64,000 nucleotides of DNA from Stachybotrys elegans (Eukaryota; Ascomycota; Sordariomycetes; Hypocreales; Stachybotryaceae), in NCBI GenBank assembly GCA_020746835.1, contig JAGPNK010000038.1:87395-151394 (forward strand), written 5' to 3'. Within the stretch, counting starts at the first letter, position 1. Every line of letters begins with the position of its first letter. A model generated the notes under the pieces. The model saw only the letters and a program-made list of their open reading frames with translations, did no database searches and was not told the DNA's origin. The position numbers were made by a program, and so were the translations under genes. Shown here in pieces: positions 21,677-56,319 of this stretch.

Positions 21677-21731
21677 TAGCCCGTGTGCCTACTTTTGATA
21701 ATAAACCCTCTACGTATTACCTACACTCACC

Positions 21732-31574: not shown

Positions 31575-32133
31575 TTGTATTGCGTATAAAGCCCAGGAAG
31601 GCAGACACCCTAAGGTGCATTAGACAAGACTAGGAAAGAGAGAAAGGGGAATGACTGGCTAGCTTGCTCTAGTCTTTGCCTGTATAGGAGCAAAATATGG
31701 CCTTGCGTAAAACAGATACACAATAGCCGTTTTATAAATACAGTAAAATTCATGTTTAGCTTCCCCTTTTTTGGACTAAGTGGATTCTAAGTTAAGGTCA
31801 CAATATGACTACACTACAGTGCATCTAGCACACACACTGTGTCATCCCGATCTTTAGCTTTAGCAATATAAATACTCCACTGGGTCCCCTTTTTTGTCAC
31901 AAGTAAACCCAACGAACAGTTCCGATTGCTATAGAGTAGGTAAGATGACATCTAAAAATGGCTCCAACAGGTCACACGCCCTCTCCCTTCTGCCCACCCC
32001 CCCCCACACCCCCTCCTCTTGCTCTCGCTCTCTCTGTCCCCCCCTCTGTCCTCGCTTTCCGTCCTCGCTCTCTCCTCCCTTTCCACCTCTCCTACTTGTG
32101 GCTTTTCCGCGCCTTTTGCTCCCCCAAGACGTC

Positions 32134-33327
32134 ATGCTGGACACTGGCTTTCAAGATCATCTTTTTGACGTTTATGATGACTATGAGCTTGACTACAGCA
32201 CACCTGTGGCTAGCCCTGCTGACTCCAGCGAGCCACAGTGTCACACACTCCCCTTCCATTACACCATCACATGGATGTTGCGATTGCGTAAAGGGAGATT
32301 GATGAAGCTTACAGATGACACTATAGAAAACGTCAACTTTGCGCCTGGTGCGTACTGGAAAGACAACTTAGAATCGAAAGTCGTGAGCGAAGCCCAGAAA
32401 CGAGCGCCCGAGCCCCAATACGATCATCACGACACCATCATTACTGTGTCTACTTCTAAACGCGGCGAACCTAAATTCGAAAAGCCCTTCCGCAAATTAG
32501 ACATTGATTGGCAGGTTATCGAGAACAAGCTAAGATCCTGGAGTAACTCGAAGGACAGTCTGAGAGTTACAATCCTATTAATTTACCAGGAGAGCCAGCA
32601 GGCACCTGCGACAAAGAAGGCGGGACGTGGAGCTACAAAGAAGCACGCCGCCGCCCTGGACAAACTCGTTGCCCAACAAAGCACGACCGGAGTGGGTGCT
32701 GTATGGCAAGATATCTATCGTCTTTTCCACTGCAACAGCAAGAACGTGTGTACAAACTTCGGATTCTATTGCTGGATTCACGAAGACAGACACTATAAGC
32801 TGGACGACAAAATTTTGGAGCAGCTGATTGATTGCGCCGAACAAGGTATCGAGCTGAAATCACACGCCGACGTGCCAGAAAGGATTCGGGAGATGATCAA
32901 AACACGTGACATGGAAGACATGCGGCGCAAAAAGCGTAAAGCAACGGCGTCCTTGCTGGCTCGCACGGATCGCTGCTGTGGCCACTGTCATGACGATAAG
33001 CCTCCAGATTGCCCTGACAGGCGCCATGCATGCGGGGTAAACCTTGTCAAGCTTAATTTGCCGATGAAGATCGACGAGGCTCCCGGGCCGTACAGCGATT
33101 GGCTTGCCGCACAGGTCGCTAATCGAGATTGGCAAGCATCTTATCGGGCAGCTAGTAAGGCTGCCATAGAAGGTGGGTATGAACTTCAATGGTTTTGCGA
33201 TGACAAGGCTGCTGGGATCGATATGCTCAAGGCTGCTGGAATCATGCCGGGCATTGCCGACCAGTTTGTAAAGAAAATTACGGAATGGGTGGACGAAGTC
33301 AATAAGAAGAATGTATCATCTGTCTAG
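32134..33327 (+). CDS. Accessory protein of the two-gene Tc1-type element (copy A), 397 residues
   Basis: Start chosen at 32134 (MLDTGFQDHLFD), preceded by a CT-rich leader and a TATA-like aatataaatac at 31863; the same start is kept in element C. Three parts recur in the divergent copy B: an N-terminal block (YTITWMLRLRKGR ... FRKLDIDWQVIENKLRSWSN ... LRVTILLIY), a central Cys-containing block (VWQDIYRLFHC, then C..FGFYCWIHED ... LKSHADVPERIRE) and a C-terminal block (AAGIMPGIADQFVKKITEWV) that looks like a small SAM-like helical bundle. A basic KKRKAT stretch and a CCGHCHD...C..RRHAC cluster lie between. I know this family as an expanded, uncharacterised group in fungal genomes; no enzymatic motif is visible. 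Role inferred: partner of the transposase (DNA or protein binding). Confidence 0.75.
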   Translation: MLDTGFQDHLFDVYDDYELDYSTPVASPADSSEPQCHTLPFHYTITWMLRLRKGRLMKLTDDTIENVNFAPGAYWKDNLESKVVSEAQKRAPEPQYDHHDTIITVSTSKRGEPKFEKPFRKLDIDWQVIENKLRSWSNSKDSLRVTILLIYQESQQAPATKKAGRGATKKHAAALDKLVAQQSTTGVGAVWQDIYRLFHCNSKNVCTNFGFYCWIHEDRHYKLDDKILEQLIDCAEQGIELKSHADVPERIREMIKTRDMEDMRRKKRKATASLLARTDRCCGHCHDDKPPDCPDRRHACGVNLVKLNLPMKIDEAPGPYSDWLAAQVANRDWQASYRAASKAAIEGGYELQWFCDDKAAGIDMLKAAGIMPGIADQFVKKITEWVDEVNKKNVSSV

Positions 33328-33351
33328 AAATCTAGCAATTTACAACAGTGA

Positions 33352-34335
33352 TTATGGAGGTTGTTCAATGTAGAGTCCAGCATTGCGAAAATGACCTTCA
33401 GCACTCTCGCGTCGACTGCCTACTGCCTCAACGCAGCATCTTACGTAGGCTTCAAAATCCCTCTGAATAAGCCCCGTGTAGTTTTTGCGCTGAGACTTTA
33501 CTTCCGTCTTGACTTCTCCAAAGAATTCTTCAATTGGATCAGTTCTTGGTGTGTAGGGCGCAGTGAAATTTTGCATCACCCCGGCGTCTGCACACATCTG
33601 CCTGACTCTGTCTGAGTAGTGAAACCCAACATTGTCCATGATGAGTACAGTTTCAGGCTCTGGCCATCTACCACAGTGACAGAGTAGCTGTTCAATAAAA
33701 TCTTCAAACAAAGGCCTGTCCATTGATCCGCTGAAAAAGCGGGATAGCTTGACGCCCCTCTGCGTATACGCTGCGATCAACTGCACTCTAGGCCCACGCT
33801 CAAACCGAGCCTTCTGGACTGGAGTGATCCCCTTTGGAGCCCATCCCTTCTTTCGAAACATGCCTGGTCTATCGAAGCCGCTCTCGTCGATAAATATGTA
33901 ATGATATGAACGACTTCCCATCATTTTAAGCCGGTAGTAATAAAAGTGTTGTAGATCAGGGACCTGTTGCTGGGCTACACGTCTCATTACCTTTAATGTT
34001 GTGTTGAGCTTTTTAAGGGCCCGGAATATCGTGGTAGCTGATACCTCCTCGCCGAACTCTTCTCTAATAAAACGAATCATCTCACGCTGGGTCATGTCAG
34101 GCTCTTTGGCCAGCTGATGGGAAAGTAAAGCGGCCATTGTAGGGGTGATCTTAGGCTCAGGACCAGTCCGGTTCTTAGGCATGGTTGTCGTTCCGAATCG
34201 CGCGAACGTTGATCGTATTTTACGGAGTGATCGGGCAGTGCAAGGCATAACATCAAGAATAGCTTTGTCGGAGAAGGCTCCTTTTATCATGTGCAGGATC
34301 TGGTCATGCTGGGATCGAGTAAGTCGAGGAGCCAT
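33352..34335 (-). CDS. DD34E transposase, Tc1/IS630 type (copy A), 327 residues
   Basis: Cut-and-paste transposase. N-terminal helix-turn-helix DNA-binding region (MAPRLTRSQHDQILHMIKG ... CTARSLRKIRSTFARFG, residues 1-50) and a second one around residues 70-115. Catalytic core: first Asp in IFIDESGFDRPGM, second in VLIMDNVGFHYS, Glu in DPIEEFFGEVK, with 34 residues between the second and third (DD34E). The usual YSPDLNPIE motif reads YTPRTDPIE. Full-length and undamaged; convergent with the accessory gene. Nearly identical to the transposase of element C. Confidence 0.95.
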   Translation of the reverse strand: MAPRLTRSQHDQILHMIKGAFSDKAILDVMPCTARSLRKIRSTFARFGTTTMPKNRTGPEPKITPTMAALLSHQLAKEPDMTQREMIRFIREEFGEEVSATTIFRALKKLNTTLKVMRRVAQQQVPDLQHFYYYRLKMMGSRSYHYIFIDESGFDRPGMFRKKGWAPKGITPVQKARFERGPRVQLIAAYTQRGVKLSRFFSGSMDRPLFEDFIEQLLCHCGRWPEPETVLIMDNVGFHYSDRVRQMCADAGVMQNFTAPYTPRTDPIEEFFGEVKTEVKSQRKNYTGLIQRDFEAYVRCCVEAVGSRRESAEGHFRNAGLYIEQPP

Positions 34336-34783
34336 ACTGAGGAACTGGCCTGATCATGGGGTGGTGAGAGGACGAAGGAACTGGAGGGGGGAAGGGGGAG
34401 GGGAGAGGGGGGATGGGGGGATACCTGTAAAACGGGGTCTAGTTTTGGCCCTGGTCATTGTGACAGATCGCTGCAGGGGACCAAAAGTGGCTCCTGTTAA
34501 GCCTGGTACTTTGGCCCACTATTTTGCACACTGTGACTAGACCAGAGAGTGACTTGCCCTAAAGAACTTTATAAAGCTAAAAAACGGAAGCTAAAGGTGA
34601 ATCTCACTGTATGAACAGTATATTTATATATACATACATACATACACATTACTATTAATTTTATAGGTTATCTTAGGTATACCTAGAAAAAGTACTGGAT
34701 GGGCACCTAATCCAGTATTGGAGGCTTATACTAGCTTATTAGGAACAGAAGAGAGCATTGTTCTTTTGTACGAACTAAATGTA

Positions 34784-34890
34784 AGTAGAAGTCAGGTTTA
34801 GCGTCCGTCAATTTAAACTTTCACTCTTTCTAGAAGGGTCCATTTTTGGCCCCGCCTGGCGCAGGCACAGTGTGTGGCTTGCTTCCAGAA
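34784..34890. repeat. Left terminal inverted repeat of unit H
   Basis: Pairs with 39509-39615. Contains the internal motif GGGTCCATTTTTGGCCCC (34836-34853) and CACAGTGTG. Confidence 0.75.
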
Positions 34891-35318
34891 GTCTCTTGAG
34901 TCCCTTACCTCTAACAGCCAGCTTTTAGTGCCTTAGGCATTAAACGAATTTTATGACTAAGCCCTGGGAAGAAAGAGTAAGCGGAATAAATGATCTAGCA
35001 ACATTGCCATCGTGATCACTTATACCGAGCGTAGTGGTTGCAGGGTTCAACAATGGTACTGCCTCCTGCCTTCTCGTACATATGGAACAGTATACTCATG
35101 CCGTATTGTCCAGAATATTCCTCAGTGCCGCCATTTAAGAAGGATAAACATCGTGGCTAACGGCTCAGTTTAGTGCACTAGAATATTCTAGAATATGAGA
35201 TCAATGCATATAATCAGGAGCTCCCCTATGACCCTCCCAAGCAGAGTTGTTTTACAAAATAATATTTTCTACTAACCAATGGAAGAAGCTATTAGTTTTA
35301 CATACGCTATACAGTAGT

Positions 35319-38300
35319 TTAAGTTAGCTTATCTGTGTATATACAGATAAAAGTGACTCTTCCAGATGGAGAACCAATTACCACTCTGGATTCTGAGATA
35401 GCGACACAGTTTTGGGGGGCTGGCCGGAAGTTCACAGGCAACCACAGTATCTTGTGCCCGCCCCATGTAATCCAATAGCCATCTTCATCCAGCCCGCATC
35501 GTGATCGTATTGGGTTGCTAACATCCAAAGGTAGGTTGGATGGTAGGCGCGACAAGTGAGTAATATTTATCTTAAAAATCGTGGTGTCTGTGTATAGGTG
35601 GAAACCGTCCGTAGTGAATGATAGCAGAGATGTTGCTCGAGCGTTGAAAATTTGCAGACACTTGCCGGTCGCGGCATCCCAGAGCCGAGCGGTGTGATCC
35701 CATGAGGCTGATGCAAGATGCTTCGCATCCGGCGAGAAGACTACTGACCTTACCCCGTTGCTATGGCCCTCAACTGTCTGGAGGCATTGGCCCATCATGG
35801 CATCCCAGAGCCGAATGGTATGATCCCATGAGGCCGATGCAAGATGCTTGGCATCTGGCGAGAAGACCACTGAATATACCCATCGGCTATGGCCCTTAAG
35901 TGTCTGGAGACATTGGCCGGTCACGGCATCCCAGAGCCGAACAGTCTTATCACCTGAGGCTGATGCAAGATGCTTTGCATTCGGCGAGAAGACCACTGAG
36001 TATACCCCGCCACTATGGCCCTCAAGTGTCTGCAGGCATTGGCCGGTCGTGATATCCCAGAGCCGAACAGTCTCATCATGTGAGGCTGATGCAAGATGCT
36101 TTGCATCCGGCGAGAAGACCACTGAGTATACCCCATCGCTATGGCCCTCAAGTGTCTGTAGGCATTGGCCGGTTGTGGTATTCCAGAGCCGAACAGTCTT
36201 ATCATCCGAGGCTGATGCAAGATGCTTTGCATCCGGCGAGAAGACCACTGAGTATACCCCATCGCTATGGCCCTCAAGTGTCTGCAGGCAGTGGCCGGTC
36301 GTTGTATCCCAGAGCTGAACGGTCTCATCATGTGAGGCTGATGCGAGATGCTTTGCATCCGGCGAGAAGGCCACTGACCTTACCCTATCGCTATGGCCCT
36401 CAAGTGTCTGTAGGCATTGGCCGGTTGTGGTATTCCAGAGCCGAACAGTCTTATCATCCGAGGCTGATGCAAGATGCTTTGCATCCGGCGAGAAGGCTAC
36501 TGACCTTACCCAGTGGCTATGGCCCTCAAGTGTGTGCAGGCATTGGCCGGTCACGGCATCCCAGAGCCGAATGGTGTGATCATATGAGGCCGATGCAAGA
36601 TGCTTCGCATCCGGCGAGAAGGCCACCGAGTTTACCGGACTGGTATGACCCTCAAGCGTCTGCAGGCACGAATCCCAGTTCTGTTCCATAGTCCCAGATA
36701 CAGACAACCAAGCCCATTGTGCCTTTAAGAACACCTTTCGTATAGGGCTTTTGAGTGGTAAGAAGGCGATAAGAGCGTAGATTTGAAGCGGGTAAGAGTC
36801 AATAGTTGACAGATAGGTCAGGCTAAAACGGAAAGCATCATCAAGTAGTAGCAATCCTTCTTCGTTTTTCTGCGGCTTATATAGCAATGAGTATCTTTTG
36901 CTGTTTAATTAAGATAGGCAGAACGCACCTGTAAAACGGAACGCAATGTTCGCAGAATGCCAAGGCTGTCCGATGCCCGCCCTACCAGACTCAGTGTTTC
37001 AATCCAGTATAGCAGGTGGCTAGAGAGGAACAGGTGAAGTTCATCACCCCAGATGTGTATGTCTCCTTTCTTTAGGTGATCGACCCAATAAAGACAGGCA
37101 TATTCAAGCTCCGGCGGGATATGGTAAATTATCGTTTGCTGATCTATATCGGATCGAGCAATTCCTGGTCTTCGCAAATCGCACATATCCCTTCGAAGCT
37201 TTTTCTTCATGAGGCGGAGGCAATGGACCACTATATCTTGATGTATCTGCTTCTCGTCTATCCAAAGTCGTGTTTTCTTCCGTGTCTCAGTATCAACTAA
37301 GAAATCCCGAAAAGATAGATGAAATAGGCGTACAGGATCCTTCGATGACATAGGAACATGCAGAACTGAATGAAGCATCTTCAGTTGATCGACAATCATG
37401 GCTTGTGAAACGCTCAGCAATCCCTCCAGAGCCGAGATCGAAAGGGGACTCTCAAGAGTAATAATGATGCCGACAAGCTTTCGAAGCTGTTGAATGACTT
37501 CATCTCTCTTTCGTTCCGATTGAATACCGACGATTTGTCGATTCAATATTGGCAAGTACGTCGCATCGAGGCCGGAGGTTGCACTCTTGCCCTTGTACAC
37601 CAAAATCTCCTCGAGAAGCTTGTCAGGGTGGCCATGACTGGGCTCGGAGATGAATCGACAAGCAGTTGCGGCGGAGATAAAAAGTGGCTTTGCGAGGTCC
37701 ACTAAAGCCTTGATCCTGGAATCGCCCGGCCAGTCCGGAGGTAGCCGTGTTTCCACGACCGTAAGGTTATAATCATCCCGTATCGATCGAAACTCGTGTT
37801 CTAGAAATACCGAGATATCGTGTTCGATAATGTCGGATCTGATTTCGTGAAGAATGAGATCTTGGTAGGTGCCCTGTGCCTTTGCGAACCCAAGGCGGAT
37901 CGGCAAATCCGGCCTGCTAGTCACAAACACTTTCACCCCGGGTATTTGTGGAGACTGCATGCGCGCAAAGAGATGGATGATGCTTCTAATCTTGTCATCG
38001 CCCTCGCATTCATCTAGTGCATCCACAATGATGACAAGTGGGCTCGACAGAGTGATCTTGGACAAGGGCTCAAAGATCAACTTCTGGAACTGCTCATGCA
38101 TAGCTGACCCCGAAATTGTCGAGTCTTTCTCGATTGTGCTCATCAACATCGGCGCTAAGCTCGGCTCTTTATCTGCCAGCTGGCGGGCTATCGTCGTCAT
38201 GAACTTGGTGGCATACCCTCGATCAGCCTCTCCTCTTTTGAAGAAAAAGCTGGCACCGAGGTGTTTTGTCCCAGACAACGAGCGAGCGATGGTCCGTGAT

Positions 38301-39022
38301 ATGGTTGACTTTCCCGTCCCAGCCATGCCATTCAACCAAAAGACTGACTTGGCGCTAGGATCGTGAACCCATGCTAGGATCTGGTCGAGGAGCTCCACTC
38401 GCGTATTTTCAAGGCAGGTTGGATTCGACTCTTCGTCATGGGAATTAAACGAGGCACCCTTGGCGATAGTAAGCCGGTCAAGCACCACAACCTGATCAGT
38501 GTTCAAGGCAACGGCACTATCCAATGTTTCTGTTAGCTCGAAGGGTCCTGTAAGTGTGATAAGGATAATCGTGACTCACAGATGGTCATGCTGTAGCGCC
38601 AGGGAAAGTGTCTGCGTGTAGCCTGCAATCTCCTGGACATCCTTCTCCACCTCTTGGCTGCTGAGAGGCCATCTTAAGGCAGTGAGTCCAAGACGGGCCC
38701 TAATCTTATGCCTTGTTCCTTCTGGTCGGAGCTTTTGCTCGAGCTTTTCGAGTTTCCTCTCCAAGGCTTGAAATTTGCATAAGCTGTCTCGGAGCCCGGC
38801 CTGCAGCTTCTGGGAGCTTTTAAGCCTCGCGGCAGTAGGACCGGTGAGCAGCCTGTCGATGTCTCCTGCGATCGCACCAAGATTATTAACCTCTTGCAGG
38901 AGTCTCTGTACATCGCTCTCAGCATTCTTGACGTCTTTGATGTATTGTGAGCATATCGAAGCAATCTTGGCCGACAAGTCGACGACGGCGATAATACTAG
39001 CCGCGACGCCGAGCCCTTCCAT
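35319..39022 (-). CDS. NACHT-WD40 NLR with Helo-like-type N-terminus (cargo of unit H)
   Basis: Fungal NWD proteins (the HET-E/HET-D type) sense ligands with WD40 repeats. N-terminal domain from 39022 (MEGLGVAASIIAVVDLSAKI ... ) is the common fungal STAND N-domain; NACHT with Walker A GMAGTGKST (about 38305-38335) and Walker B VIIVDALDECEGDD (about 38000-38040); linker; then eight 42-residue WD40 repeats (LQTLEGHS...V.SV.FSPDAKHLASAS.D.T.RLW....GQC, about 35640-36680) that are nearly identical except at a few positions. Exon joints: 36929/36875 fits in phase (acceptor AAG is weak); the first joint (about 38566/38550) gives a one-base frame conflict with the obvious GTGAGT donor and CAG acceptors, so either a small frameshift or a missed splice site is present. 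C-terminal 100 residues form a partial extra propeller blade or tail. Confidence 0.8.
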
Positions 39023-39508
39023 GACAGAATGGCTTGGTGGGTTTGAAGTCCCTGCTTACCCTTTGGACTGGACTGTGAGGACGAGCCAGCTCTGGCGGGG
39101 TAGTTTAGGCTACGGAGTAAGAGTAAATTCAGCTCCCTTCTCATGATTGGCGCGATAAGGATAAGTGAGGCGATCTGTGTCACGTGCATCATAGGTAACC
39201 ATGCTGCCACGTATCATCTGTTCGAGTCATCCACATGCGGGTCAGCTCTCGCAGCCAGGCGTTCGTCAAGAGTGCACGGGATCGTTTGGGCGATGTCCTT
39301 GATCGGGACATTATCCAGGAGCAGAGCATAAACCTTCTCCTTCGGAGTTAGTCACGGGGCCATTAGGGGATAAAGCACTCTTTTGAGCCAATTCTGAGGC
39401 TTCTGTTGTAGGAGACAGAAGTGGCGGCCTATCCACTCGTGGATGGCCGGCCAATGTTCGTGTCTGAGGCATCAACTTGGTTGTTAGTGCTAGAGTGCCC
39501 ACGGTACT

Positions 39509-39615
39509 TCCAGAGGCAGGCTAGGCACTGCGCCTGTGCCGCGCGGGGTCAAAAATGGACCCTAGTTGAAAGAGTCAAACTTTAGATCGGCGGACGCTAA
39601 ACTTTAACCCTACTG
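39509..39615. repeat. Right terminal inverted repeat of unit H
   Basis: Reverse-complement partner of 34784-34890; outer end CAGTAGGG, next to TA at 39616-39617. Confidence 0.75.
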
Positions 39616-41308: not shown

Positions 41309-41352
41309 GTGTTCTGCGAATTTTACTTGGATAGAAATGGCATGTAATTGCG

Positions 41353-42330
41353 TTATTTGCTTGGATATTCTATGGTAACTCCAGAATGAAGAAAGTGACC
41401 CTCTGCGCTCTCCCTCTTTGCTCCCACCTGATTAATACACCACCTCAGAAATGTGGCAAAGGGTAGGTGTTCTGTGTCCTGCTTGCACCACTCCTTCCTC
41501 ATGAAATCCTTTACTTCTCCAAAATGCTCCTCTATAGGATTCAAATCCGGGGAGTACGGAGGGAGGAATAGAAGCTCTACCCCTGCCTCGGAGCACAACT
41601 GCTTGAGGTACTCCGGCCGATGAAATCTTGCATTGTCCATTACTAGCACAGACTTGGGCTGCGGGAACCTTCCACAGTGACGCAGCACCTGTTTAATAAA
41701 GTCCTCAAATACGGCATGGTCAGTTGAGCCTTGGAAAATGCGTGACAACATAACCCCATCTTGAGTGTATGCTGTGATAAACTGATGTCTTTTCTCACGC
41801 CTGAAGTCAGAAATATGGACTGGGGTTATCCCTCTGGGAGACCATCCTTTTCTCCGATGAGCAGTCGAGGTGTCGCAACCAGACTCGTCAATATAGATCA
41901 AGTGATACGACTTATACCTCGATAATTTGTAATGATATAAATGTCGGAGAAGGGAGTTCCGTTGCTTTGCAACACGGCGTATGGTCTTCTTAGACCAGTT
42001 CCTGGACTTCAGAGCGCGGGAGAGGCTGCTTAGCGAGATGTCTACTTCGAACTCATCACGAAGAAATGTAATCATTTCGTCGCGAAACATGCGTGAGTTC
42101 TTTGTCAGTTCACTGCATAAAGCATCCAGCATATCCGGAGAGACGCTTCGTTTGCGACCGCATCGATTTCGGGGTGGTCTCGTCGTTCCAAATCGTTGTA
42201 GGTTCCAGCGGATCCTCCGCACTCCACGCTCGCTACATTCGACTTTCTCCGCAATCTTGCGCACAGGAAGGTCAGTCAATAGCAAAGCCTCGATCTGCTT
42301 ATGCTTGGAGACAGTCAGTTGCGGCGCCAT
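41353..42330 (-). CDS. DD34E transposase, Tc1/IS630 type (copy B), 325 residues
   Basis: N-terminal helix-turn-helix (MAPQLTVSKHKQIEALLLT ... CSERGVRRIRWNLQRFG), catalytic Asp in IYIDESGCDTS, second Asp in VLVMDNARFHRP, Glu in the canonical PPYSPDLNPIEEHFGE, spacing 34. Full-length. It keeps the ordinary YSPDLNPIE motif that copies A and C have changed, so B is closer to the family consensus. Confidence 0.95.
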   Translation of the reverse strand: MAPQLTVSKHKQIEALLLTDLPVRKIAEKVECSERGVRRIRWNLQRFGTTRPPRNRCGRKRSVSPDMLDALCSELTKNSRMFRDEMITFLRDEFEVDISLSSLSRALKSRNWSKKTIRRVAKQRNSLLRHLYHYKLSRYKSYHLIYIDESGCDTSTAHRRKGWSPRGITPVHISDFRREKRHQFITAYTQDGVMLSRIFQGSTDHAVFEDFIKQVLRHCGRFPQPKSVLVMDNARFHRPEYLKQLCSEAGVELLFLPPYSPDLNPIEEHFGEVKDFMRKEWCKQDTEHLPFATFLRWCINQVGAKRESAEGHFLHSGVTIEYPSK

Positions 42331-42612
42331 CGACAGTATAGATCAACCAAATCTAGCTCCTGTGTTGTAGGGAAAGAAATGGATGGCGAGAACAGCAGAA
42401 CAAGGGGACAGGGTTAGTCGTGGGGGACCCCGGGTACCTGAACTGGCACCAGCAAAACCATGTGGGCCCAGAACATGGGCCAAGAACATGTGTACAAATG
42501 GACTACAGTGAGTGCACGGTGTTCAGCCACATGTGGCGTACCTGCCCTGTGCTCAAAACTAATTCTGTTACAAAAGGATGGACAGTCATTCTGGCCGATT
42601 CTGTACAATGAC

Positions 42613-44339: not shown

Positions 44340-45040
44340 CTAGTCCTAGGACAAATATGAGCTAGCTCTAAAGTCGTTTATTGCTTTTAGCTTTCCGCAT
44401 GTCCTAGGACAAAATATGAGCTAGCTCTAAAGTTGTGGAAGCAGAAACTTAGAGCTAGCTCAAATATAGCCCCTAGGACAGCTCTAGCGAGTCCTAGAAC
44501 AAGAGCTGGTTCTGGGACGAGAGTGGGTGTTAGGACAAGAGCTGGTTCTGGGACGAGAGCTGGTTCTGGGACAAGAGCCGGTTTTGGGACGAGAGTGGGT
44601 TCTAGGACGAGAGTGGGTTCTGGGACAAGAGCTGGTTCTGGGACAAGAGCTGGTTCTGGGACAAGAGCCGGTTTTGGGACGAGAGTGGGTTCTAGGACAA
44701 GAGCTGGTTCTGGGACGAGAGTGGGTTCTGGGACAAGAGCCAGTTCTGGGACAACATATGAGCTAGCTCTAAGGGGACTACATTTGAGCTAGCTCTAAGT
44801 TTCTGCACCCACAACTTTAGAGCTAGCTCATATTTTGTCCCAAAACCGGCTCTTGTCCCAGAACCAGCTCTCGTCCCAGAACCAGCTCTTGTCCCAGAAC
44901 CCACTCTCGTCCTAGAACCCACTCTCGTCCCAAAACCGGCTCTCGTTCTAGGACTCGCTAGAGCTGTCCTAGGGGCTATATTTGAGCTAGCTCTAAGTTT
45001 CTGCTTTTATCATCCCACAACTTTAGAGCTAGCTCTAAGT
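44340..45040. repeat. Foldback element built on an 18-bp minisatellite
   Basis: Left arm: about fourteen copies of an 18-bp unit (AAGAGCTGGTTCTGGGAC and variants) at 44500-44754; right arm: about eight units in reverse complement at 44838-44950. Both arms are framed by the same flank (ACTTAGAGCTAGCTCAAATA, CCCCTAGGACAGCTC, GAGTCCTAG), so the whole is a large imperfect palindrome with its centre near 44790. Its frames code for monotonous Thr-Arg-Ala-Gly-Ser text on both strands, which is a repeat artefact and not a protein. Confidence 0.85.
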
Positions 45041-45591: not shown

Positions 45592-47260
45592 CTAGACGTT
45601 CGTGTTTCTTTTCAGATGGCATACAGCTTCTTCAAGACGCGAATTGACGTCCAGGTCATCATTCGGCAACAATATAATGGCATATAGCCCTGATAAGCAC
45701 GCCGAGTCGAATACTGCGCCTGGGGTCATCAGAGGTTCGCGCTCCGTTGAATATGGTATAAAGCCGTCGTCCTTATACTGCTCTGCTGTACTTTCCACGA
45801 CTGAACGGTCAACGGCTACTCTGCGGTCGATCTGCAAGCTACCTTGTCTGAAGGTATAGAACGATATTGTGGCAGGATGAGGCTCGGGAAGCTGGGCTTC
45901 GAGATATTGGCTGGTTATATGCCTAGCTTCGCCCCTTTCTTCTGTCGTCAAGATCTCAGTTGCAGCTGCATTTTGCATGTGTGTATCTCCTGCATCCTCA
46001 GAACTGCCTTTCCGCGATGCCGCTTTCATGTCCGTTAGCATAGATGGAGTGAGGTCGAACTGCTTTATGTTTCTGCCAAAGAATGCAAAGTACATTGCCC
46101 TTAGCACGAAGAAAGAAGTGAATTCCTCTGTCTGTGCATGAAGGTTATGTATGAACAGCAATTCCCTGTCTTTTTCGTATGTATTATCATAGGGGATGCC
46201 GCTGCGTCTCCTCGGGTTTGGAGTGCTGCAAAAGGAGGGGATATGGTCCTGCCGCTGGATACATATACTTTCACTATTTGACTGCTCACTACCTGGCGCC
46301 ACGAAGCCAAGACGGTTGGCGAGGCCAGAAAACTCGCTCAGGACGTCAACTTCTGCTTCTTGGAGCTCACATTTCGCCAGAAGTTGTTTACCATTACTTT
46401 GTCGAGGCCATGCCATTGACTTCCAATTCCTCATGACATACAGCCATAGCTGGCGTTGCGCCAGATCAAAGCGAGCATCTGCAGGAACGGATAATTGATA
46501 GAACACTCCGCTTGATACCTCGACTGGCATGGTGCCACCACCTTCAGTCGCTGAAAACGAGCCTTTCAAGATGGAGTCTACAGTAGGAGGCGGCACCCTG
46601 TCGTAGGGTTTGTTACCTGGCGGGCGCTTCCTCTTTGGAAATTTAATAACGTGACGAATGCTGGGCGCGATGGTGTCGATAAAATGCAAATCTTTTAGGA
46701 GTGTAAACAGACTTAGAACGGGATGGTCAATCGAGAGCAGCGAATTCCACAATTCATGCCGTTGCGCTTGGGTGAGAGCGGTGAATATCTGGCCTGCCTG
46801 TAATTTCTCGAAGATTTCTCTTTTATCATCCTGGCAGTATTTGGGGCATTTCCCCTCTATTGCAGTGACAGAAATAGAGTCTGTTTGTGTTCTTGCGTCC
46901 TCCTGCGGTATGAGTTTGGTCCAGTCTGCTGATACTTGGGAGTTATAATGAATAACCTGCTATGGAAAGTCAATACCATATTCGTCGTGGACTGTTTATC
47001 TCTACCTCGGCATATCTTGAGTATTTATGCCATTGACTGACGCTCCAGCCACCCCGTAGACCTTTTATCGTAAGCGGTTCGTCGAATGACTTGGCAAGTG
47101 CTTCGTGGTCAAGAAGCGCATTCACACATCGGAGAGCATGTTTAGACGAAAGCTGAGATATATACTGGCTTTCGGAATGTCGATCCTTCTTTAAGCGGGA
47201 TTCTCGTATCTTACAATAAATTTCTACATCCGAGGTGGACTCCAATTTCCTCTTGCTCAT
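45592..47260 (-). CDS. DUF3723-type fungal protein, 539 residues
   Basis: Two exons (47260-47006, 46956-45592; 49-bp intron GTAGAG...GCAG) join in phase. The order of conserved blocks fits DUF3723: YISQLSSKHALRCVNALLD, IEGKCPKYCQDDKREIFEK, QAGQIFTALTQAQRHELW, HPVLSLFTLLKDLHFI, then RQLWLYVMRNWKSM and LANRLGFVAPGSE. The biochemical role of the family is unknown; it is known as an accessory family in fungal giant transposons (Starships). The start MSKRKLESTSD lies only 14 bp inside the boundary of unit I, so most of the promoter is replaced by transposon DNA and a longer original N-terminus cannot be excluded. Length is below that of many family members. Confidence 0.7.
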
Positions 47261-47274
47261 CGTAAATGAAGATA

Positions 47275-47493
47275 CAATGAATTTCATGTTTAGCTTCCAT
47301 ATTTTAGCTTTATTATATTTTGAGGACAAGTCACTCTCTGGTCTAGTCACAGTGTGCAAAATAGTGGGCCAAAGTACCGAACTTAACAGGAGCCATTTTT
47401 GGTCCCCCCGTAAGTGGGTCTCATATTGACCAGTGCCCAAAACTGGACCCTAGTACCGGTATCTCCATTCCCCTCCATCTTCGGTTCCTTCAT
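47275..47493. repeat. Left terminal inverted repeat of unit I
   Basis: Matches the transposase end of element C (GTCACTCTCTGGTCTAGTCA, CACAGTGTGCAAAATAGTGG, CCATTTTTGGTCCC) and, inverted, 52891-53045. A remnant of a transposase start follows to about 47573. Confidence 0.8.
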
Positions 47494-47573
47494 CCTCACC
47501 ACCCACGATAGGCCAGAACACGCCCAATTCCCCAATATGGCTCCTCCATTGACCCGATCCCAGTATAACCAGA

Positions 47574-48044
47574 TAGGTAATCAAGCATAATAAGGCCGGC
47601 GGAGGGCGCTTAAGTGGGCGGCCACGGCCGTGGCGATCACTTAGAAGGTAGGTGTACAGTCCAAACGGTTGGCTTCACAGTTAAACAAAGCTCGACGAAG
47701 GCATACGGCCCGGATAAGTTTACAACAGCGCGCTGGTTATCAGATTCAAAGAGGATCTTTGAAGGTAGGACAAGGTCAGGACACTGTAATGGAGGCACGC
47801 AACTACATTAAAGAAAAGAGGCAGAGAGTGGCGTAGCGGAGCCTGGCAAGGAGGGCCAACTTTACAAATTTTGAAAGTGAAGTTTCTCGAATATTCCACA
47901 TCTACTAGAAGGCAAACCTCTAATAGTATATTAATGTGCTCCCTTGAAACCTCCTCTGCAAAGCTAATAAAATAATAATTGTGATAAAAATTAGAAAAGT
48001 CCTTCCATCCTACCCTTAGCTCCCCATATCAGGTGCTTAATCAC
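47574..48044. other. Spacer inside unit I
   Basis: Between the transposase-start remnant and the stop of the NLR gene no open frame of note; composition becomes AT-richer toward 47930-48000. Confidence 0.45.
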
Positions 48045-51000
48045 CTAAGAGAACGGCACATTTAGGGACATCCTCATAACCACCATGCGTCCCGTCGAAC
48101 GGCCGACGGCAATTGCTGACCCATCTTTCGAAATGTCTGATTGTCCAGGTCGGAAATCAGGTGGGAGCCATATTGCCCCCCGACCACACCATGTGACCCA
48201 AGAACCGTCGCCACTTAGATTCCACGCCAGCCTCATCCCGTTAGATGCTGATTGTTGATCCAAAGGTAATTGGTCATCGGATTGGATCTCAACGTCAAGG
48301 TCGATGCTGCCGGCATTGGTTTGAAGCTGCAGGCCGAAATCGCTCGAGCGTTCAAATCGAAGACGGTCCACGGTGAGGCCCATAGGCACAGTACGGACCT
48401 CCTTGCCCGACCTGGCATCCCATATCCTGATGGTATCATCGTATGAGCCCGATGCGATGCGGCTGCCATCAAGCGAAAACGCTACTGAGCTAACCCAACT
48501 GCTATGGCCCTCGAGCTTGCGGACCTCCTTGCCCGACTTGGCATCCCATATCCTGACGGTACGGTCGTATGAGCCCGATGCGATGCGGCTGCCATCAGGC
48601 GAAAACGCTACTGAGTTAACCGAACCGCTATGGCCCTCGAGCTTGCGGACCTCCTTGCCTGACTTGGCATCCCATATCCTGACGGTATCATCGTATGAGC
48701 CCGATGCGATGCGGCTGCCATCAGACGAAAACGCTACTGAGTGAACCGAATTGCTATGGCCCTCGAGCTTGCGGACCTCCTTGCCCGACTTGGCATCCCA
48801 TATCCTGACGGTACGGTCGTATGAGCCCGATGCGATGCGGCTGCCATCAGACGAAAACGCTACTGAGTGAACCGAATCGCTATGGCCCTCGAGCTTGCGG
48901 ACCTCCTTGCCCGACTTGGCATCCCATATCCTGACGGTAGCGTCGAGCGAGCCCGATGCAATGCGGCTGCCATCAGGCGAAAACGCTACTGAGTTAACCG
49001 AACCGCTATGGCCCTCGAGCTTGCGGACCTCCTTGCCCGACTTGGCATCCCATATCTTGACGGTACCGTCGAGCGAGCCCGATGCGATGCGGCTACCATC
49101 AGGCGAAAACGCTACTGAGCTAACCCAACGGCTATGGCCCTCGAGCTTGCGGACCTCCTTGCCCGACTTGGCATCCCATATCCTGACGGTATTGTCGTGC
49201 GAGCCCGATGCGATGCGGCTGCCATCAGGCGAAAACGCTACTGAGCTAACCGAATCGCTATGGCCCTCAAACGTTTGCAGACATGGACTCCAATCTTTTT
49301 CGACCAGTGGCTTTGTTAAAATCCAACTAAGCTCTTCCTTAGCGAATAATCGGCGAATAATACTATTAACTGGAGTAAATAGTAACGCCGATATATATAT
49401 TTGTAGTGGGGCCAATTCGATAATCCAACGGTTATATAAAATAAACCGATATGCATCTTCAATAAGGTCAACGAAAGCGTCGCCCTTTGTAGTCTAAGCC
49501 TACAGTTAGTTACATGGTTTTCGTGCTATCAAGAATTGCAAATACCTACTATAAAATTATTTCTAAGCCTACTAAGAGAGAAAACTCCGTTCGTGACAGC
49601 GCCTAGGAGACTTAACGCTTCAAGCCAGTAGAGGAAGTGATGGTGGAAGAACGTGGCGATTAAGTTGCGCATGCCGGTGCTCTCCTTTGAAGGGGCTAGA
49701 TGCTGCTTGAGCGCGCTTACTAGCCGCGAACGCCGATTTCTCGGCAAATCGGTTTTGTCTACTTCACAAAAGTGGTCGATCCAGTATGCACAGGAGTATT
49801 CCACTCCAAGTAAAGGATTCAGACCAGGCGGACCCTTTACTTCATCGATGAGTGTCCCCGGATGCGATAGGCTATACATGTCTCGCCTTAGTGCGTTCGT
49901 CATCGCGGTCACTGACCTCTCAACGATACTGCGGTGCACAGCGCGCGTCCCGGAGGGGAAAATCTTAGCGACAGCGGCTTCACTGACCAGGTAGTCCTTG
50001 GCTGACTGATGAATGGGGTAAATATAACCCTCCACCAGGGTGAGAAACGAACCGCACATGTCTATCATCCTCTCCAGATCGGCCGTGTTATATTCAAGGC
50101 CAGACAGAATTTGGAGCTCGAGAAGGCGGAGGGGGCGGTGCGCTAGAGTTGCGATTGAAAGAATGACAAGGCATGAGTCCCGGTAAGCGCTTATGGAGAT
50201 GCCAATATTCTGCATCATCCTGTCGTAAAGTGGCGGAAGGCCCGACGGTACCTCATCGATAAGCCGAACAATGTCGTCGCTCAAAGCACTGTGGACCGAT
50301 CGTAATATTAGGTCGACCCATAAAAACGTACCGTCAGCCTTGTCCTGTAGTTTCTGCTGGACATTGCGTCGCTGAGCGGGGTTGGATTTGAGCGATGGTA
50401 TTTGGGACACCTTGTGATCGATGTAAACTTCAATCGCCCGTGACACGGCTTCCGAGTTCACCTCCAGGCTTAGCTTCTCTTCCGGATTATCGAGCTCGAT
50501 GTCAACGGTATTGCGGCTCGTAACGATCCACTTGACGCGGTTTTCCTGGCGGGATGTTTCTCTGATCAGGTCACGAAGCGCCAGCAGACCGTCTTCGCAT
50601 TCATCGAGAGCATCAACGGCTAGGTAGACGGTTTCTGACCTGGGGTGCTGAACCATCTGTCTGAAGACGTTGGAGAGCGCATCGAAGGCGTTGCCATTGT
50701 TGTTAGTGACGTCGAAGACCTCCTTGCCCATTCGGTCGTAGTCTTCCTTTAGGTACGATACGAGGCTGCTGTCCTGGACCAACAGGAGATACATAAGCCC
50801 TTTGAGGATAGCGACTACATTGTTTAAGCGGTCATCGGTATTCTGGCAGAAGAAAAACGATAAGAACAAGTCGGCGGTGGGTTGGTCGAGTTTAGCGTAA
50901 GGGCGAAGTTCCTTGGTGATGGCGACCATCAGCATCGTCTTGCCTTTGCCGGCACCGCCCTTGATCCAGAGCAGCTTAGTCCTGTCATGTCGCCACTGGC

Positions 51001-51679
51001 GGTAGCTGGGGTGGGAGAGAATCCAGCGAGATGAGGCTTCGTATAAACCGCCTTTCGTTCGTTCGATACGTAGCTTGTCGATAGTGGGATCTGTCCACCT
51101 CAGCTCCTTGAGCAAGGCATTTCGCTCAGCATCTGTTCCTCGTTAGAAAGACACTACTTTCTCCCGGTTTAATAGTAAGAAGATACCTCCCACCAACGAC
51201 AGTGGAATTGCCGATATCTCTCTCACCGCCTGTGTCAGCTTTTCAATCTCAACCTCTGTAGCCAATCCCATCATATGATCGCCCACCAAAAGCTGGATAT
51301 CGTCCAGTATACCCTTCATAAGCGATTCCACGGTGTTTCCTTTGCCCAAGGTGCGGGCGGCAAGCAGGTATCGCTGCGTTCTGGAAGCATCGGCCTCTGG
51401 GATGACCTTCCGAAATATATCCTCCAAACGTGTTGCCCTGTCCTTGCAGACATCCAGGACAGGCTTCCTCGCTGTGTAATATGCCTCGTCAGGGCTAGTG
51501 TCGTTCAGTTTTCGCAGAGCAGTTTGGAGCATGTCTTGTACAAGAGGGAGTCGCTTGGCAACATCGTGAAAGGCTCTAGGGAGGCCGGAGGCATCGGTGG
51601 CGGCGCCGTAGACCTTCACAGTCGCATCGACAATGGCGATGATGCCAGAGATGAGGCCGATAACTTCTACACCAGACAT
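48045..51679 (-). CDS. SesA-NACHT-WD40 NLR (cargo of unit I), 1174 residues
   Basis: Three exons join in phase: 51679-51187, 51132-49550, 49493-48045 (introns 54 and 56 bp with CTAAC-type branch points). N-terminal domain: MSGVEVIGLISGIIAIVDAT with LPRAFHDVAKRLPLVQDML and RYLLAARTLGKGN, the SesA/NACHT_N pattern. Then KGGLYEASSRWILSHPSYRQ, Walker A IKGGAGKGKTML (about 50935-50965), Walker B VYLAVDALDECED (about 50600-50640), winged-helix region, and seven 42-residue WD40 repeats (VRKLEGHS..V.SVAFS.DGSRIASGS.D.TVRIWDAKSGKE, 48390-49280), almost identical except at fixed positions. The C-terminus (DGSWVTWCGRGAIWLPPDFR) matches the tail of the other NWD gene. No lesion seen: probably functional in non-self recognition. 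Confidence 0.92.
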
Positions 51680-51782
51680 ATCTCCGGTTGGACGCGAAAG
51701 AAAGCCTGTTCAGGTGAATTTCGAAGTGGCCTTAGGCTGGCTGCGGGCATTTCTGGCGTACTTTGACAGCCTGCACCCCGCC

Positions 51783-52135
51783 TGTTACGACACAACCGTC
51801 AGCTGCAGATCACGTGGTTCATCACGTGATCTGCTTATCAACCGACCAATGAACGGCAGAGAAAAGGACGCATGTCGACGAGAGTCGATCAGCGTCGATC
51901 GACTGCCGTCGACCATACATTAGGATAACTATAGACTGGCGAGCACTCCGAGGCTCCTTTGAAGTACTCGCCAGCTATCAATACAACTTGGTTGCCCTGA
52001 CGCCTTTGGTATCAGCACATCACCTAACGTAACAACCCCACGTTGCTCGACGTACGCCCTTACCGCCTGTGTGACGTAAACCCCGACACGGCCCCTTGGA
52101 CCTTATCACCGATCACAGCCAACCCGATCGTTACA
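51783..52135 (+). repeat. Solo LTR (left), 353 bp
   Basis: Starts TGTTACGACAC and ends CGATCGTTACA. A 12-bp-arm hairpin (GCAGATCACGTG ... CACGTGATCTGC) lies near 51803-51832. Followed by ACGAC (52136-52140), preceded by CCGCC (51778-51782). Its 3' half matches the reverse complement of 52527-52720; the 5' halves differ, so the two LTRs belong to related subfamilies. It sits about 100 bp upstream of the NLR start. Confidence 0.7.
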
Positions 52136-52526
52136 ACGACCAGGCCCACAACTGGACCCTAGGACCGGTATCTTCATCTCCCCAAATCTACAGTTCCTTG
52201 TTAACTTTATATTATATAAGCCTATTATTATAAAGATTTTGTTCTTTTTCCTTTTTCCTTTTTTTTTTTTTTTTTTTTTGGAATTTTATATTTAATATAG
52301 GGTTCCAGTCTGCAAATGCTAGGGCAATAAGGTTCGCCTTATTTGGGCGGAAATATTCGTTACCTCCAAAGAGCGTTTCTTCCTGCAAGCAAGAATAGAC
52401 GAGAAAATATCTTAAATCGAAGACGACCTCATAGTACTTCTTTTACCAATGCTTGTCCCCAAGCAACTTGCTCCACACTTCTCGTCCATGGTTCGTCGGT
52501 CCGTACGGAGCTGAGGGCATTCGCGG

Positions 52527-52890
52527 TGCAACGATCGGGTCCTATCCTGGTACAGGGTAGGCGGATTGGTCTGATCGGTGACTGAGTCCAAAGGGCCGAG
52601 TCGGGGTTTATGCCACAGAAGCGGTTAGGGCGTACGTTGAGCAACGTGGGGTTGCTATGTTAGGTGATGTGCTGATACCAAAGGTGTCAGGGCAACCAAG
52701 TTGTATTGATAGCTGGCGAGGCGTGCCAACCACAGCCTTGTCACGTAGGTTTAATATAATACAAGGCTCACGGGGAACCGTGAGCCGGACCACTGATCCT
52801 CGTGAGCCCCGAACCAGACTCACGTTCCTTCGTGATCCCTTCATAATCACGTGACATTGCACGTGACCCCCATCTGTGGATGACGTGACA
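52527..52890 (-). repeat. Solo LTR (right, inverted), 364 bp
   Basis: On the minus strand it starts TGTCACGTCATCC and ends CGATCGTTGCA. Flanks on that strand: ACGAC before (52895-52891) and CCGCG after (52526-52522). Contains several GTGA/CACG-rich short palindromes (GCTCACGG...CCGTGAGC, about 52767-52785). Confidence 0.7.
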
Positions 52891-53045
52891 GTCGTCATGA
52901 GACATACTTGCAGGGGATCAAAAGTGGCGCCTGTTAGGTTTGGTACTTTGACCCACTATATTGCACACTGTGACTAGACCATAAAGTGACTTGCCCCAAA
53001 AATATTGTAAAGCTAAAATATGGAAGCTGAACCTGAATTTTATTG
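52891..53045. repeat. Right terminal inverted repeat of unit I (outer part)
   Basis: Reverse-complement partner of 47275-47429. Its inner continuation lies, inverted, at 52136-52195 because of an LTR-mediated rearrangement. Confidence 0.8.
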
Positions 53046-53241
53046 TATAGGTACAGGTACCGATACGCAGAACCTCAGACTTCTTATCCCCATGTAATAT
53101 CCTGGCGACTTGCGCGAAAAGTGGCGGCAGCCGCTAACGGCCACAGAGTCAGTATTTAAGCCACCACCTCGAACGCTTCTCATTAGCCTACAAATATATG
53201 TATCCACATCGCCAATCTGAGCGTTTGTACATGGAGCAGTC

Positions 53242-54521
53242 ATGGATAAGACGGGTCGTCCAACCACTCAAATATTCTTTAGCGGGGTACGTCCAAGCAG
53301 GGTTCGCACTAAAAGCCCAAAACACGAAAAGTTCAGGGACTCTGGATCGACAGGCTCCAAGCGTCTGAAACCCGTGATAGACGAAGCGCTCCAGCAGGCA
53401 AAGGTAGAAAGTGGTACTGTCAAGAAGCATACCAATAACAAGCTGCGCCGAAAGGATCACATAACGGACTTGGCCAATCGTGAGGAGCTTAACCCGGATG
53501 CAACTCTGTTTATCGATGGCAGCAACAAGAAACCTGTTACTATTTTCGCGGCCAACCCCGGGGATCCATGGAAGCATTATGAGTGGATATTGACGTACCA
53601 TGATCTTGGGGGTGATGTGGACCTGGCGCTTGTGAGAGCAAAGCCAGACGTATTGGTCAACATCAGGGTATTCACAACTCAAGAGGCGGAGCAAACACTC
53701 TCCCGCATACAACAACTTCCACACGACTTGTTTGTTGAGGCATATGATGCTTACGTTACAGAGGAATCTCTCTACGTGATATTTGAGGATATGCATATCA
53801 ACCTCTCCCGCATGATAAAGAGCACGGATTACCCTACGCCGCATCAAGTCGGCGCTATTATTGGCCAGGTGAGTTATCTTAGGAGTTTAGTCTACCTACT
53901 TCTCAGCTTACTGTTTAGATAATTGAAGGTATTGCCTATCTAGAAAATGAGGGCATGGAACACATTCATTTAGACTCAAGCTCTGTGCTGCTTACAGCTA
54001 TGGGCGTAGTCAAAATAGGTACGTATTGGCGGACAATGAGCAGCTAAAATTGACTTTGCTGTTTAGGGTATCAAGAATCCTGTAAGAACGCGACTCCAGG
54101 AAGCAAGTCCCGAGCTGTGGGCAAAATCAGGGATATACTCATGGAGTTGATCAATAAAGACAAAACGGCCACCGGCACACAGCAACCAGAATGGCTCTCT
54201 TGCTCGGAGGGCATCGACTTCCTTGCTGCAACTGTTACTGCTAAATCAGCCAATGAGCTTTTGAAGGTGCCACGCAATTCATCTCTCAGACAGCTCTATG
54301 TGCTAACAATGGTCAGCATCCATTTCTGGCTTCGTATGGGCGTCAAGGAGACGCTTGGCATCATTCCTGCCTTCGGAGACTTATTTATAGAGCAGCTGCA
54401 CAGTTTCGTAGGAGCTGCCAATATTCAAAACGGGCCTCGGAAAATATCGACAAACCATAATGCGCTATTTATGGCTCCCAAGGTTATATTTAGCTCCAAT
54501 AGCTTAGATGTCCTCGCATAA
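53242..54521 (+). CDS. Kinase-like protein lacking catalytic motifs (pseudokinase), 393 residues
   Basis: Three exons in phase: 53242-53868, 53919-54018, 54067-54521. The N-terminal 90 residues are basic and disordered (TKSPKHEKFRDSGSTGSKRL). Then a kinase-like fold: DVDLALVRAKPDVLVNIRVF (N-lobe strands without the expected catalytic Lys), a hinge-like ESLYVIFEDMHINLSRMI, and MEHIHLDSSSVLL..MGVVKIG, where HLD stands for HRD and the DFG motif is missing (VKIGYQESC). Such degenerate kinase domains are common in expanded fungal families and probably bind partners rather than phosphorylate. It lies directly upstream of the ferric-reductase-like gene on the same strand and just right of unit I. 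Confidence 0.65.
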
Positions 54522-54603: not shown

Positions 54604-56319
54604 ATGGCATTCATAACTGTGGATAGCAGCCGTCTGTACGCGCTCGCATTTAGTGGTCTTTTTATCATTTTGTTTGTCGTGGCCTTGTTCCATCCATTAT
54701 TCCTACGTTTCTCAAAGCCTGTTGCTGTCTTCATCAACAGGGCTCTTTTCTATACACCACTTCTTCATCGACATAGGTTCTTCGGTCCATGGACAACAGC
54801 TGAGTTCGTGGTTCAATCCGGCTACGTTATCGCAAATCTTGTATCAATTTCATTTAATGCATCCTCCGTCTCCATGGCTTCGCTTTGTGCAGGTAGACTG
54901 GCATTGTTTAACATGATACCCCTATTCCTGAGTCCTGATTTGGCCTTCCTCGCCGACAGTCTCGGGCTGCCTCTCAGGGTTTTTCGAAAGGTGCACTGCT
55001 CGTCAGGGGTCATGACGATGATGATGACTCTCGTACATGTTTGCCTAATGGCATTCCAGAAAAGAGCACAGGATCTCTACACGTTGTTGGCAGGTGCATT
55101 TTTACCCAATCGCCTAACCTATTTTACTCATTTATGTAGGGCGGACTTGCAATACTGCTTGCGGTAGTGCTATCAGCTCGACTTCTCCGCAAGATGCTCT
55201 ACGAAGGCTTTCTCCGAATTCATCAAGCACTAGCAATCTTTGCTGCTTCTTTGATATGTCGACATTTGCTGGCTGTTCCCGATTTTTCCTGGTTATATCT
55301 TTATGTCTATGCAAGTGTGGCCTGCTGTCTTAATATTTTCTATCTAGCACTCACGTTGTATCGAAACGTGGCCAGGGGGAAACCTTTTCCCCGTGCATCT
55401 CTCAAATCCCAGGGAGGAGGCACAACAATTATTGTGGACCTGCCACGACCAATCCATATCGACGCTGGGCAGTACGTGAATTTATGGATTTGGGCTCCCA
55501 AAATAAGCTTTTGGACATGTATGCAAAGCCACCCGTTTACGGTAGCTTCTTGGTCGCCTGATGGCCAGGTCAGGTTGGAGCTGTTTGCCAAGTCTCGCAG
55601 AGGCCTGACTTCAAAGATGACTGGTACTCCACAGACTGATACTTCAAACGTCCCTTGGTTGAAGTGTTTAGCCTTTTTTAGTGGCCCACACGGATCTCGA
55701 ATTGATATATCGGACTATAAGTCAGCAATTATGGTAGCAAGCGACTACGGTATTGTTGCAATGTTACCATTCCTCCAAAAGTTCGTTTATGGCTACAAAT
55801 TCTTCACCGGGCGCATTTGCCGGATCCATATAATATGGCACATAAAGACAAGTGGTCTCCCGGCCATACAACACATCCTTAATCAGTACCTAGGCGATGC
55901 TGAGCTGAGAAGTGTATGTTTATCTGGTTTCTAAAGCTATAACTGACATATTCTGTAGGTTCTACAATTATCGGTGTTCAAAGAGAGCGACACAAGGATG
56001 AACTGGGTTGGATCCCATGGGCGTTTGAGTGTCTTAAATGAGGCACCAAGAATCTCGGAAATCTTTCTGGAGGAGATAAATGGGGATTTTGTCACGCACT
56101 CTGACCAGGACGAGAGTTCCCAGCAGGTAGACAAGTTTATAGCAAATCCCGCTAAGCTTCTGGTACTCGGTAAGGCAATCCAGGCCCCGATATTTCCCTC
56201 CTCGCTGATATACCATAGTATCTGGTACCGGTGAGCTCCGAGACAGAGTGAGGAAGGAAGTCCGGAAGCATTTATACGAGGATATGGAACTGAGGGAATT
56301 GGATTACCAAATACAGTAA
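54604..56319 (+). CDS. Ferric reductase (FRE)-type transmembrane flavocytochrome
   Basis: FRE proteins pass electrons from NADPH via FAD and heme across the membrane to reduce iron. The frame starts MAFITVDSSRLYALAFSGLF with a membrane segment, then HRHRFFGPWTTAEFVVQSGYV, several further membrane helices with His-containing motifs (KVHCSSG, TLVHVCLM, RIHQALA, ICRHL), the FAD site HPFTVASWSPDG (about 55530), the NAD-site FSGPHG and ASDYGIVAMLPFLQKF, and the C-terminal VSGTGELRDRVRKEV. Exons: 54604-about 55093, 55140-55913, 55959-56169, 56219-56319. The last two joints are in phase; at the first, the natural donor (GTGCAT, 55094) and acceptor (55139) leave a one-base frame conflict, so the copy may carry a frameshift. 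Confidence 0.8.

Follow-up and report, generated by a model that had tools for sequence, protein, structure and literature searches.

A non-autonomous Tc1/mariner-type element carrying a complete NLR gene in the fungus Stachybotrys elegans

Results

An NLR gene between two transposon arms

In a 64,000-nucleotide stretch of the Stachybotrys elegans genome (C32:87395-151394 in an assembly of 43.4 Mb and 61 contigs; hereafter the window), we observed a unit of 5,771 bp at positions 47275..53045, here called unit I. It consists of a complete gene for a NOD-like receptor (NLR) enclosed by two inverted arms of Tc1/mariner type. Positions are those of the window unless a contig is named. The unit is missing from contigs C15, C33 and C29, where its flanks are directly joined.

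The NLR gene lies on the minus strand and has three exons. Exon 1 (51187..51679, start codon at 51679) encodes a SesA domain, exon 2 (49550..51132) the NACHT/NPHP3_N part, and exon 3 (48045..49493) WD40 repeats with 126-nt spacing, including seven 119-nt copies that are 90-100% identical to a reference copy. With the two introns placed by hand from splice signals, the gene forms one frame of 1,174 aa without a stop, in which the SesA N-terminus (E=6.7e-41), NPHP3_N (E=2.3e-31), NACHT and WD40 were all matched, as expected of a fungal NLR. The first-pass annotation, made from the letters, had also read a complete SesA-NACHT-WD40 gene here. A search for protein relatives, with scoring limited to the candidates that had the most words in common with the query, gave 345 matches (120 of them listed). 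The best 17 of the 345 are 62-78% identical and belong to fungi that we take to be Sordariomycetes.

The left arm (arm 1; 47275..47427, plus strand) is 85% identical to the right arm (arm 2; 52905..53045, minus strand). The inverted repeats measure 136 nt with 87% identity (47272-47407 / 52913-53048), or 153 nt with 85% in a gapped alignment, and across 140 nt the arms share ~86% identity. Inverted repeats had been predicted, at ~220 bp; they exist but are shorter. Read inward, the left tip is TA|CAATGAATTTCATG and the right tip TA|CAATAAAATTCAGG. The terminal inverted repeats (TIRs) begin with CA at a TA, as in Tc1/mariner elements (CAATGAATT... / CAATAAAATT...).

Both arms are 83-86% identical to the transposase end of two-gene elements in the same window (A/C type, described below), as opposed to 47-51% to the end that bears their second gene, ORF2. 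The value for the left arm against the transposase end of element A is 86%. This agrees with the earlier derivation of both arms from the transposase end. On the left, the similarity to the A/C transposase end continues for ~303 bp (47272-47574, 74%). Beyond the arm itself, it covers the rest of the transposase 5′ region (47428..47574, plus strand, 74%), with a remnant of the start codon at 47537 followed by 17 codons and a stop (MAPPLTRSQYNQIGNQA*). Unit I has no DDE transposase of its own and, since the transposase is reduced to this 17-codon start, it is a non-autonomous derivative.

On the right, the outermost 24 nt are identical to arm 2 of a miniature inverted-repeat transposable element (MITE) present in six copies, and the nearest relative of the left arm is arm 1 of the same MITE (88%). 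In a tree of arms, the right arm of unit I and MITE arm 2 group together (support 0.93), with arm 2 on a long branch. With only 11 short sequences in the tree, these support values carry modest weight.

In its structure, unit I combines traits of two classes. Both of its ends come from one parental end and no transposase lies between them, as in MITEs, although at 5.8 kb and with one insertion it has neither the small size nor the several copies of a MITE. Additionally, it holds a complete gene between the TIRs of one mobile unit, as Pack-type (transduplicated-gene) elements do.

Empty sites of unit I

The segment C15:351001-364500 is a near-copy of window positions 30706-55896 that lacks element A, element D and unit I. 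In this copy, window positions 47274 and 53046 adjoin (...GAAGATATAGGTACAGG...). The junctions in the window read GAAGA[TA]CAATG...TTATTG[TA]TAGGTACAGG, while the empty site of C15 has a single TA (GAAGATATAGG). Comparison of this site with both junctions identifies a duplicated TA target, with the left copy at 47273..47274 and the right copy at 53046..53047. Thus, the TA dinucleotides noticed earlier on both outer sides are confirmed, and the limits 47275-53045 are exact to the base. C15 differs from the window by 1 mismatch in 2,151 bp of the left flank and 1 in 2,851 bp of the right flank. Farther left, over a tandem array, the two differ more: an alignment of 3,277 columns has 46 mismatches and 126 gap positions. 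The array (44439-45006) has an 18-bp period and a large inverted-repeat structure, and it differs between C15 and the window.

Besides the window, the right flank of unit I is complete at three sites, on C15, C29 (98%) and C33 (97%). C22 has two shorter matches, which stop before the junction. The site is empty in all three complete copies, and its length is unchanged. It reads GAATATGTAGG in C33 and GAATATGTAGT in C29, where the junctions have 2 and 3 substitutions, respectively, and no added bases. Excision usually leaves added bases. Because all three full right-flank copies are empty, insertion of unit I is favoured over its excision.

In the contig C47, which is near-identical to C32, the left junction is followed by the first 1.65 kb of unit I, and the contig stops within the WD40 repeats. 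Since the same left junction is found there, unit I is not an error of a single contig. We conclude that unit I is a single inserted unit, gained in the C32/C47 copy of the locus, and that its arrangement is not a matter of chance; the empty sites settle this. The comparison of empty sites had been suggested by the first-pass annotation, and within this one assembly it was successful three times. An old host NLR between separate elements, named there as the finding that would speak against capture, is excluded by the adjacent flanks in C15, C33 and C29.

More generally, the region of the window is partly present as several near-identical blocks on C32, C47, C15, C29 and C33 (97-100% where compared), which differ in their transposon insertions. 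These blocks may be alleles or subtelomere-like duplications.

Relatives of unit I in the genome

Element A (31741..34609) carries an open transposase and ORF2, belongs to the end family of unit I, and is a possible source of transposase. It is missing from C47 and C15, where a single TA is found, and C47 holds an A-type element that is not present in the window. The transposase of element A matches DDE_3 and has DD34E spacing, as counted by hand. It is open across 327 aa in three A-type copies, has a stop in the C42 copy, and lies in two pieces in the element C copy. Six identical MITEs (343 bp including both TA) with unit I-type arms occupy six different sites, on C1, C15, C22, C33, C34 and C48 (e.g. 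C1:2235735-2236077), and represent a recent burst. The identical MITEs and the differing presence of element A among C32, C47 and C15 indicate that the element family of unit I was recently mobile.

The search with one arm gave 16 matches: unit I twice, its copy in C47, five A-type elements, six MITEs, an NLR-bearing element on C22, and a fragment on C29. Two ends on C15, at 139878 and 146166, were considered as another composite like unit I and rejected, as they come from two distinct elements, a complete one of A type and a MITE.

Element D (39685-42603), with a transposase and ORF2, is missing from C15 and is therefore probably a recent insertion as well. ORF2 is conserved in three types of Tc1-like elements (31894-33327, 40112-41308 and C47:1269-2594; 26-34% identity) and is convergent with the transposase. 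It had no Pfam match in any of the three types, nor did a Pfam domain appear among its 24 database relatives, of which the named ones include Trichoderma, Apiospora, Xylariaceae and Bifiguratus. Perhaps ORF2 is a helper of transposition. A search with the ORF2 end gave 13 matches, including seven partial-match relatives, two of which (C32, C47) are the same place.

Inside unit I, upstream of the NLR, lies a nested inverted repeat (51967..52720; 158 nt, 88%). It represents a further small repeat, which also occurs in partial, diverged form on C25, C7, C34, C20 and C6. For unit I and for elements A, C, D and H, the RIP-type (repeat-induced point mutation) dinucleotide indices differ little from the values for the window as a whole.

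Other elements that carry NLRs

A separate NLR-bearing Tc1-type element, unit H, occupies positions 34784..39615, with TA at 34782-3 and 39616-7; its boundaries were read from the sequence. Its site is unoccupied in C33 (C33:26951-27100), with the expected length at the junction. C33 has CA in place of TA, one further adjacent substitution, and 6 extra nt farther right in the flank. The spacing of matches suggests that C29 also lacks unit H. H-like NLR DNA was found at seven places in the genome, three of which are H itself (C32, C47, C15); the other four match part of the query.

A third type is found at C22:73040-79223, where both ends of an A-like element enclose a PNP-NACHT-ankyrin NLR; the 5′ part of ORF2 is kept on one side and 5′ pieces of the transposase on the other. 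It was recovered with the arm query and not in a search for NLRs. Its flanks are adjacent on C33 (87% and 94%). This is only consistent with C33 as its empty site, because C33 has 36 nt of differing sequence there instead of the expected 13. Elsewhere on the same contig, H-like NLR DNA stands beside a second open transposase (C22:120242-125273; 367 codons, 54% to A).

An H-type element of 7.3 kb at C47:1-7262 combines an open transposase of 343 codons with a relative of ORF2 (442 codons; 34% to ORF2 of A) and, on the transposase strand, an NLR with NACHT and WD40 frames. The element ends in ...CACTG|TA at window 24579/24580 (site 24580-24581), and the window continues identically without the insert. 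One junction is seen, as the contig begins within the other arm. With its transposase, ORF2 and NLR, this element is a candidate autonomous NLR transposon, apparently self-sufficient. At C7:~16845-22600, H-type arms enclose a PNP-NACHT NLR, for which a WD40 part is inferred from DNA similarity to H.

The H-type elements and unit I differ in their ends and their NLRs, and the C22 type is added to them. To judge by these sequences, this transposon group has taken up NLRs on no fewer than three occasions. This extends the two separate captures proposed earlier for H and I, which indeed differ in both ends and receptors, with the H site unoccupied in C33 and a third type on C22.

The host flanks

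On the left, unit I is bordered by a DUF3723 reading frame (46970..47260, minus strand; open reading frame and domain match), whose likely ATG at 47260, chosen by hand, is ~14 bp from the insertion. The insertion may affect the expression of this frame. On the right, an open reading frame without a Pfam match (53242..53922, plus strand) starts ~195 bp away. In a wider view, unit I is flanked by DUF3723 frames (45592-47260) and by a FAD-binding reductase-like frame (FAD_binding_8; 55167-55934), both of which are Starship-type accessory genes. The Starship captain domain DUF3435 (PF11917) had 41 matches in the genome and none on C32, C15, C47, C22, C29 or C33. A Starship background around unit I is possible.

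Discussion

We are highly confident that unit I is a non-autonomous DNA transposon of the Tc1/mariner type that lost its own two genes, holds one complete NLR instead, and was inserted in one piece, already loaded, at a TA with a DUF3723 gene on one side and a divergent neighbour on the other. The ends, the TA duplication, the empty sites and the open reading frame are observed directly.

The steps that led to this arrangement can be outlined as follows. Unit I would have been mobilised in trans by an A/C-type transposase, of which three copies have all 327 aa open. The NLR would have displaced the central part of a two-gene element. The simplest route is an excision after which gap repair was interrupted and switched to an ectopic NLR as its template. 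Such a capture is suggested by the fact that unit I keeps the transposase 5′ end on one side and has the NLR at the place of ORF2 and in its orientation. It is also suggested by the pattern shared with C22:73040-79223: in both, the ends still bear 5′ parts of the element, and what lay between them has been replaced. The NLRs of the two are directed toward the transposase end, like ORF2 in A. Once between the ends, the receptor gene would change location and copy number together with the element, and it may pass more easily between nuclei or strains.

Several observations weigh against this account or narrow it. The target dinucleotide is TG in C33 and C29, so only C15 shows the actual TA target. 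The tips of unit I read CAAT and those of A/C read CAGT, and no transposase was matched to the unit I ends. Unit I is known from one insertion only (C32, with C47 as a near-identical copy), which documents a single transposition of the NLR-loaded element. C15, C29 and C33 may represent either alleles or segmental duplicates. Moreover, exons 1-2 used as a nucleotide query found no donor of the NLR in the genome, only matches of 58 and 87 nt besides the gene itself. Given this lack of a close relative, the NLR may have been captured in another species, or so long ago that its donor is no longer recognisable.

Other explanations for the locus fare worse. An old host NLR might have come to lie beside two unrelated Tc1 elements or MITEs, each decayed to one arm; Tc1 insertions are indeed frequent in the region, and MITEs with such arms are found elsewhere. 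The empty sites rule this out, as the flanks adjoin directly and without an NLR in C15, C33 and C29. The pairing of the right arm with MITE arm 2 and of the left arm with MITE arm 1 (88%) also fits two ends of one element, and we give the idea of two insertions practically no credence. Nor do we put any real weight on a misjoin of unit I into C32 during assembly. C47 does end in near-identical WD40 repeats, which are hard to assemble, but the left junction is present in two contigs, and both tips bear TA and stop where the ends of the family stop.

An ancestral unit I that later left C15, C33 and C29 by clean excision is also improbable. Tc1 elements excise, precise excision is possible, and substitutions adjoin the junction in C33 and C29. 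However, the length is unchanged in all three copies, and C33 and C29, at 97-98% to C32 over the right flank, are empty too, which would require separate precise excisions. Even then, unit I would be a mobile NLR element. Equally doubtful is a degraded Starship in which the NLR, DUF3723 and the FAD-binding reductase-like gene are ordinary cargo and the Tc1 ends incidental. DUF3723 and FAD_binding_8 adjoin unit I, and the published accessory genes of Starships include NLRs, ferric reductases and DUF3723 (PMC12506042). Against this stand the absence of a DUF3435 captain on the six contigs concerned and the exact coincidence of the NLR gain with the Tc1 ends.

HET-D/E proteins combine NACHT with near-identical WD40 repeats. 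The NLR of unit I shares this architecture and differs from HET-D/E in its SesA N-terminus and its location within a transposon. High internal conservation has been described for fungal NLRs of the HET-D/E (NWD) type (PMC12222747).

A close parallel in transposition is ToxTA (formerly ToxhAT) of Bipolaris sorokiniana and other wheat pathogens, a TA-duplicating, proposed non-autonomous Tc1/mariner element that moves ToxA (PMC12506042). It resembles unit I in its TA duplication, its long TIRs (74 bp in ToxTA) and its probable dependence on an outside transposase. In contrast, ToxTA is an element of ~14 kb with effector cargo, nested in a Starship, whereas unit I has 5.8 kb, one NLR and no captain on its contig. 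In Pyrenophora tritici-repentis, transduplication by Tc1/mariner and hAT elements has been reported, with an extra gene between the TIRs of a Tc1/mariner element alongside full-length copies of both genes (PMC3538342). The extra gene within Tc1/mariner TIRs is shared with unit I. In that species, the Tc1/mariner cargo is an osmosensory-coiled-coil ORF and the hAT cargo a histone H3-like gene, present in many copies, as opposed to one insertion of unit I, and the word NACHT does not occur in the main text of that paper.

Starships likewise move NLRs, which are known among their accessory genes (PMC12506042, PMC9594970). They are giant tyrosine-recombinase elements with many genes, whereas unit I is a small DDE-type derivative with an NLR as its sole gene. 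Unit I can also be set beside the MITEs of Fusarium oxysporum effector-gene promoters. Those MITEs go by the name of mimps. Like unit I, they are small inverted-repeat elements linked to rapidly evolving genes; by the title of the source, they lie in promoters (PMC3599309), whereas the arms of unit I enclose the gene as one inserted unit.

Among the papers listed by a full-text literature search, judged by titles and the beginnings of abstracts and with most subscription papers and every bioRxiv preprint outside its scope, none described a small Tc1/mariner element with an NLR as its gene. It is already known that fungal Tc1/mariner elements capture genes and that Starships carry NLRs; within the literature covered, an NLR as the gene of a compact Tc1/mariner element appears to be new.

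The first-pass annotation had supposed that the repeat structure favours the uptake of NWD genes. Among the 13 two-ended elements of the arm search (five A-type, six MITEs, unit I and C22, leaving out the C47 copy of unit I and the C29 fragment), two carry foreign genes, and both of these are NLRs. NLRs make up ~1% of the 43.4 Mb genome by our own arithmetic, at ~4 kb per match of the profile PF24883, which has at least 135 matches (150 of 171 candidates scored, with pieces of one gene counted apart) and also matches in 9 of 14 control genomes. The matches are clustered locally, however, with four in the 64-kb window, which weakens the case. With two elements at hand, and with an NLR of the ankyrin type rather than NWD on C22, a preference of this transposon group for NLRs is suggested, not proven.

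A whole receptor gene was thus gained at this locus by way of a small cut-and-paste element, and the empty site is kept in the same genome. The repertoires of fungal NLRs vary greatly between lineages, and what drives their turnover is an open question; in the main text of a 2025 survey of Sordariales NLRs, words starting with "transpos" occur only twice. As a tentative idea, which we hold to be possible rather than probable, NLRs could be a recurrent, selected module of a Tc1/mariner lineage in this fungus and not chance passengers, in a lineage that includes the apparently self-sufficient three-gene element at C47:1-7262. The receptor might then benefit the element, for example if a nucleus that had lost the receptor were incompatible with a carrier nucleus, or by guarding against rival elements, and NLR repertoires would diversify by transposition. 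The presence or absence of such a receptor can hinge on one transposition.

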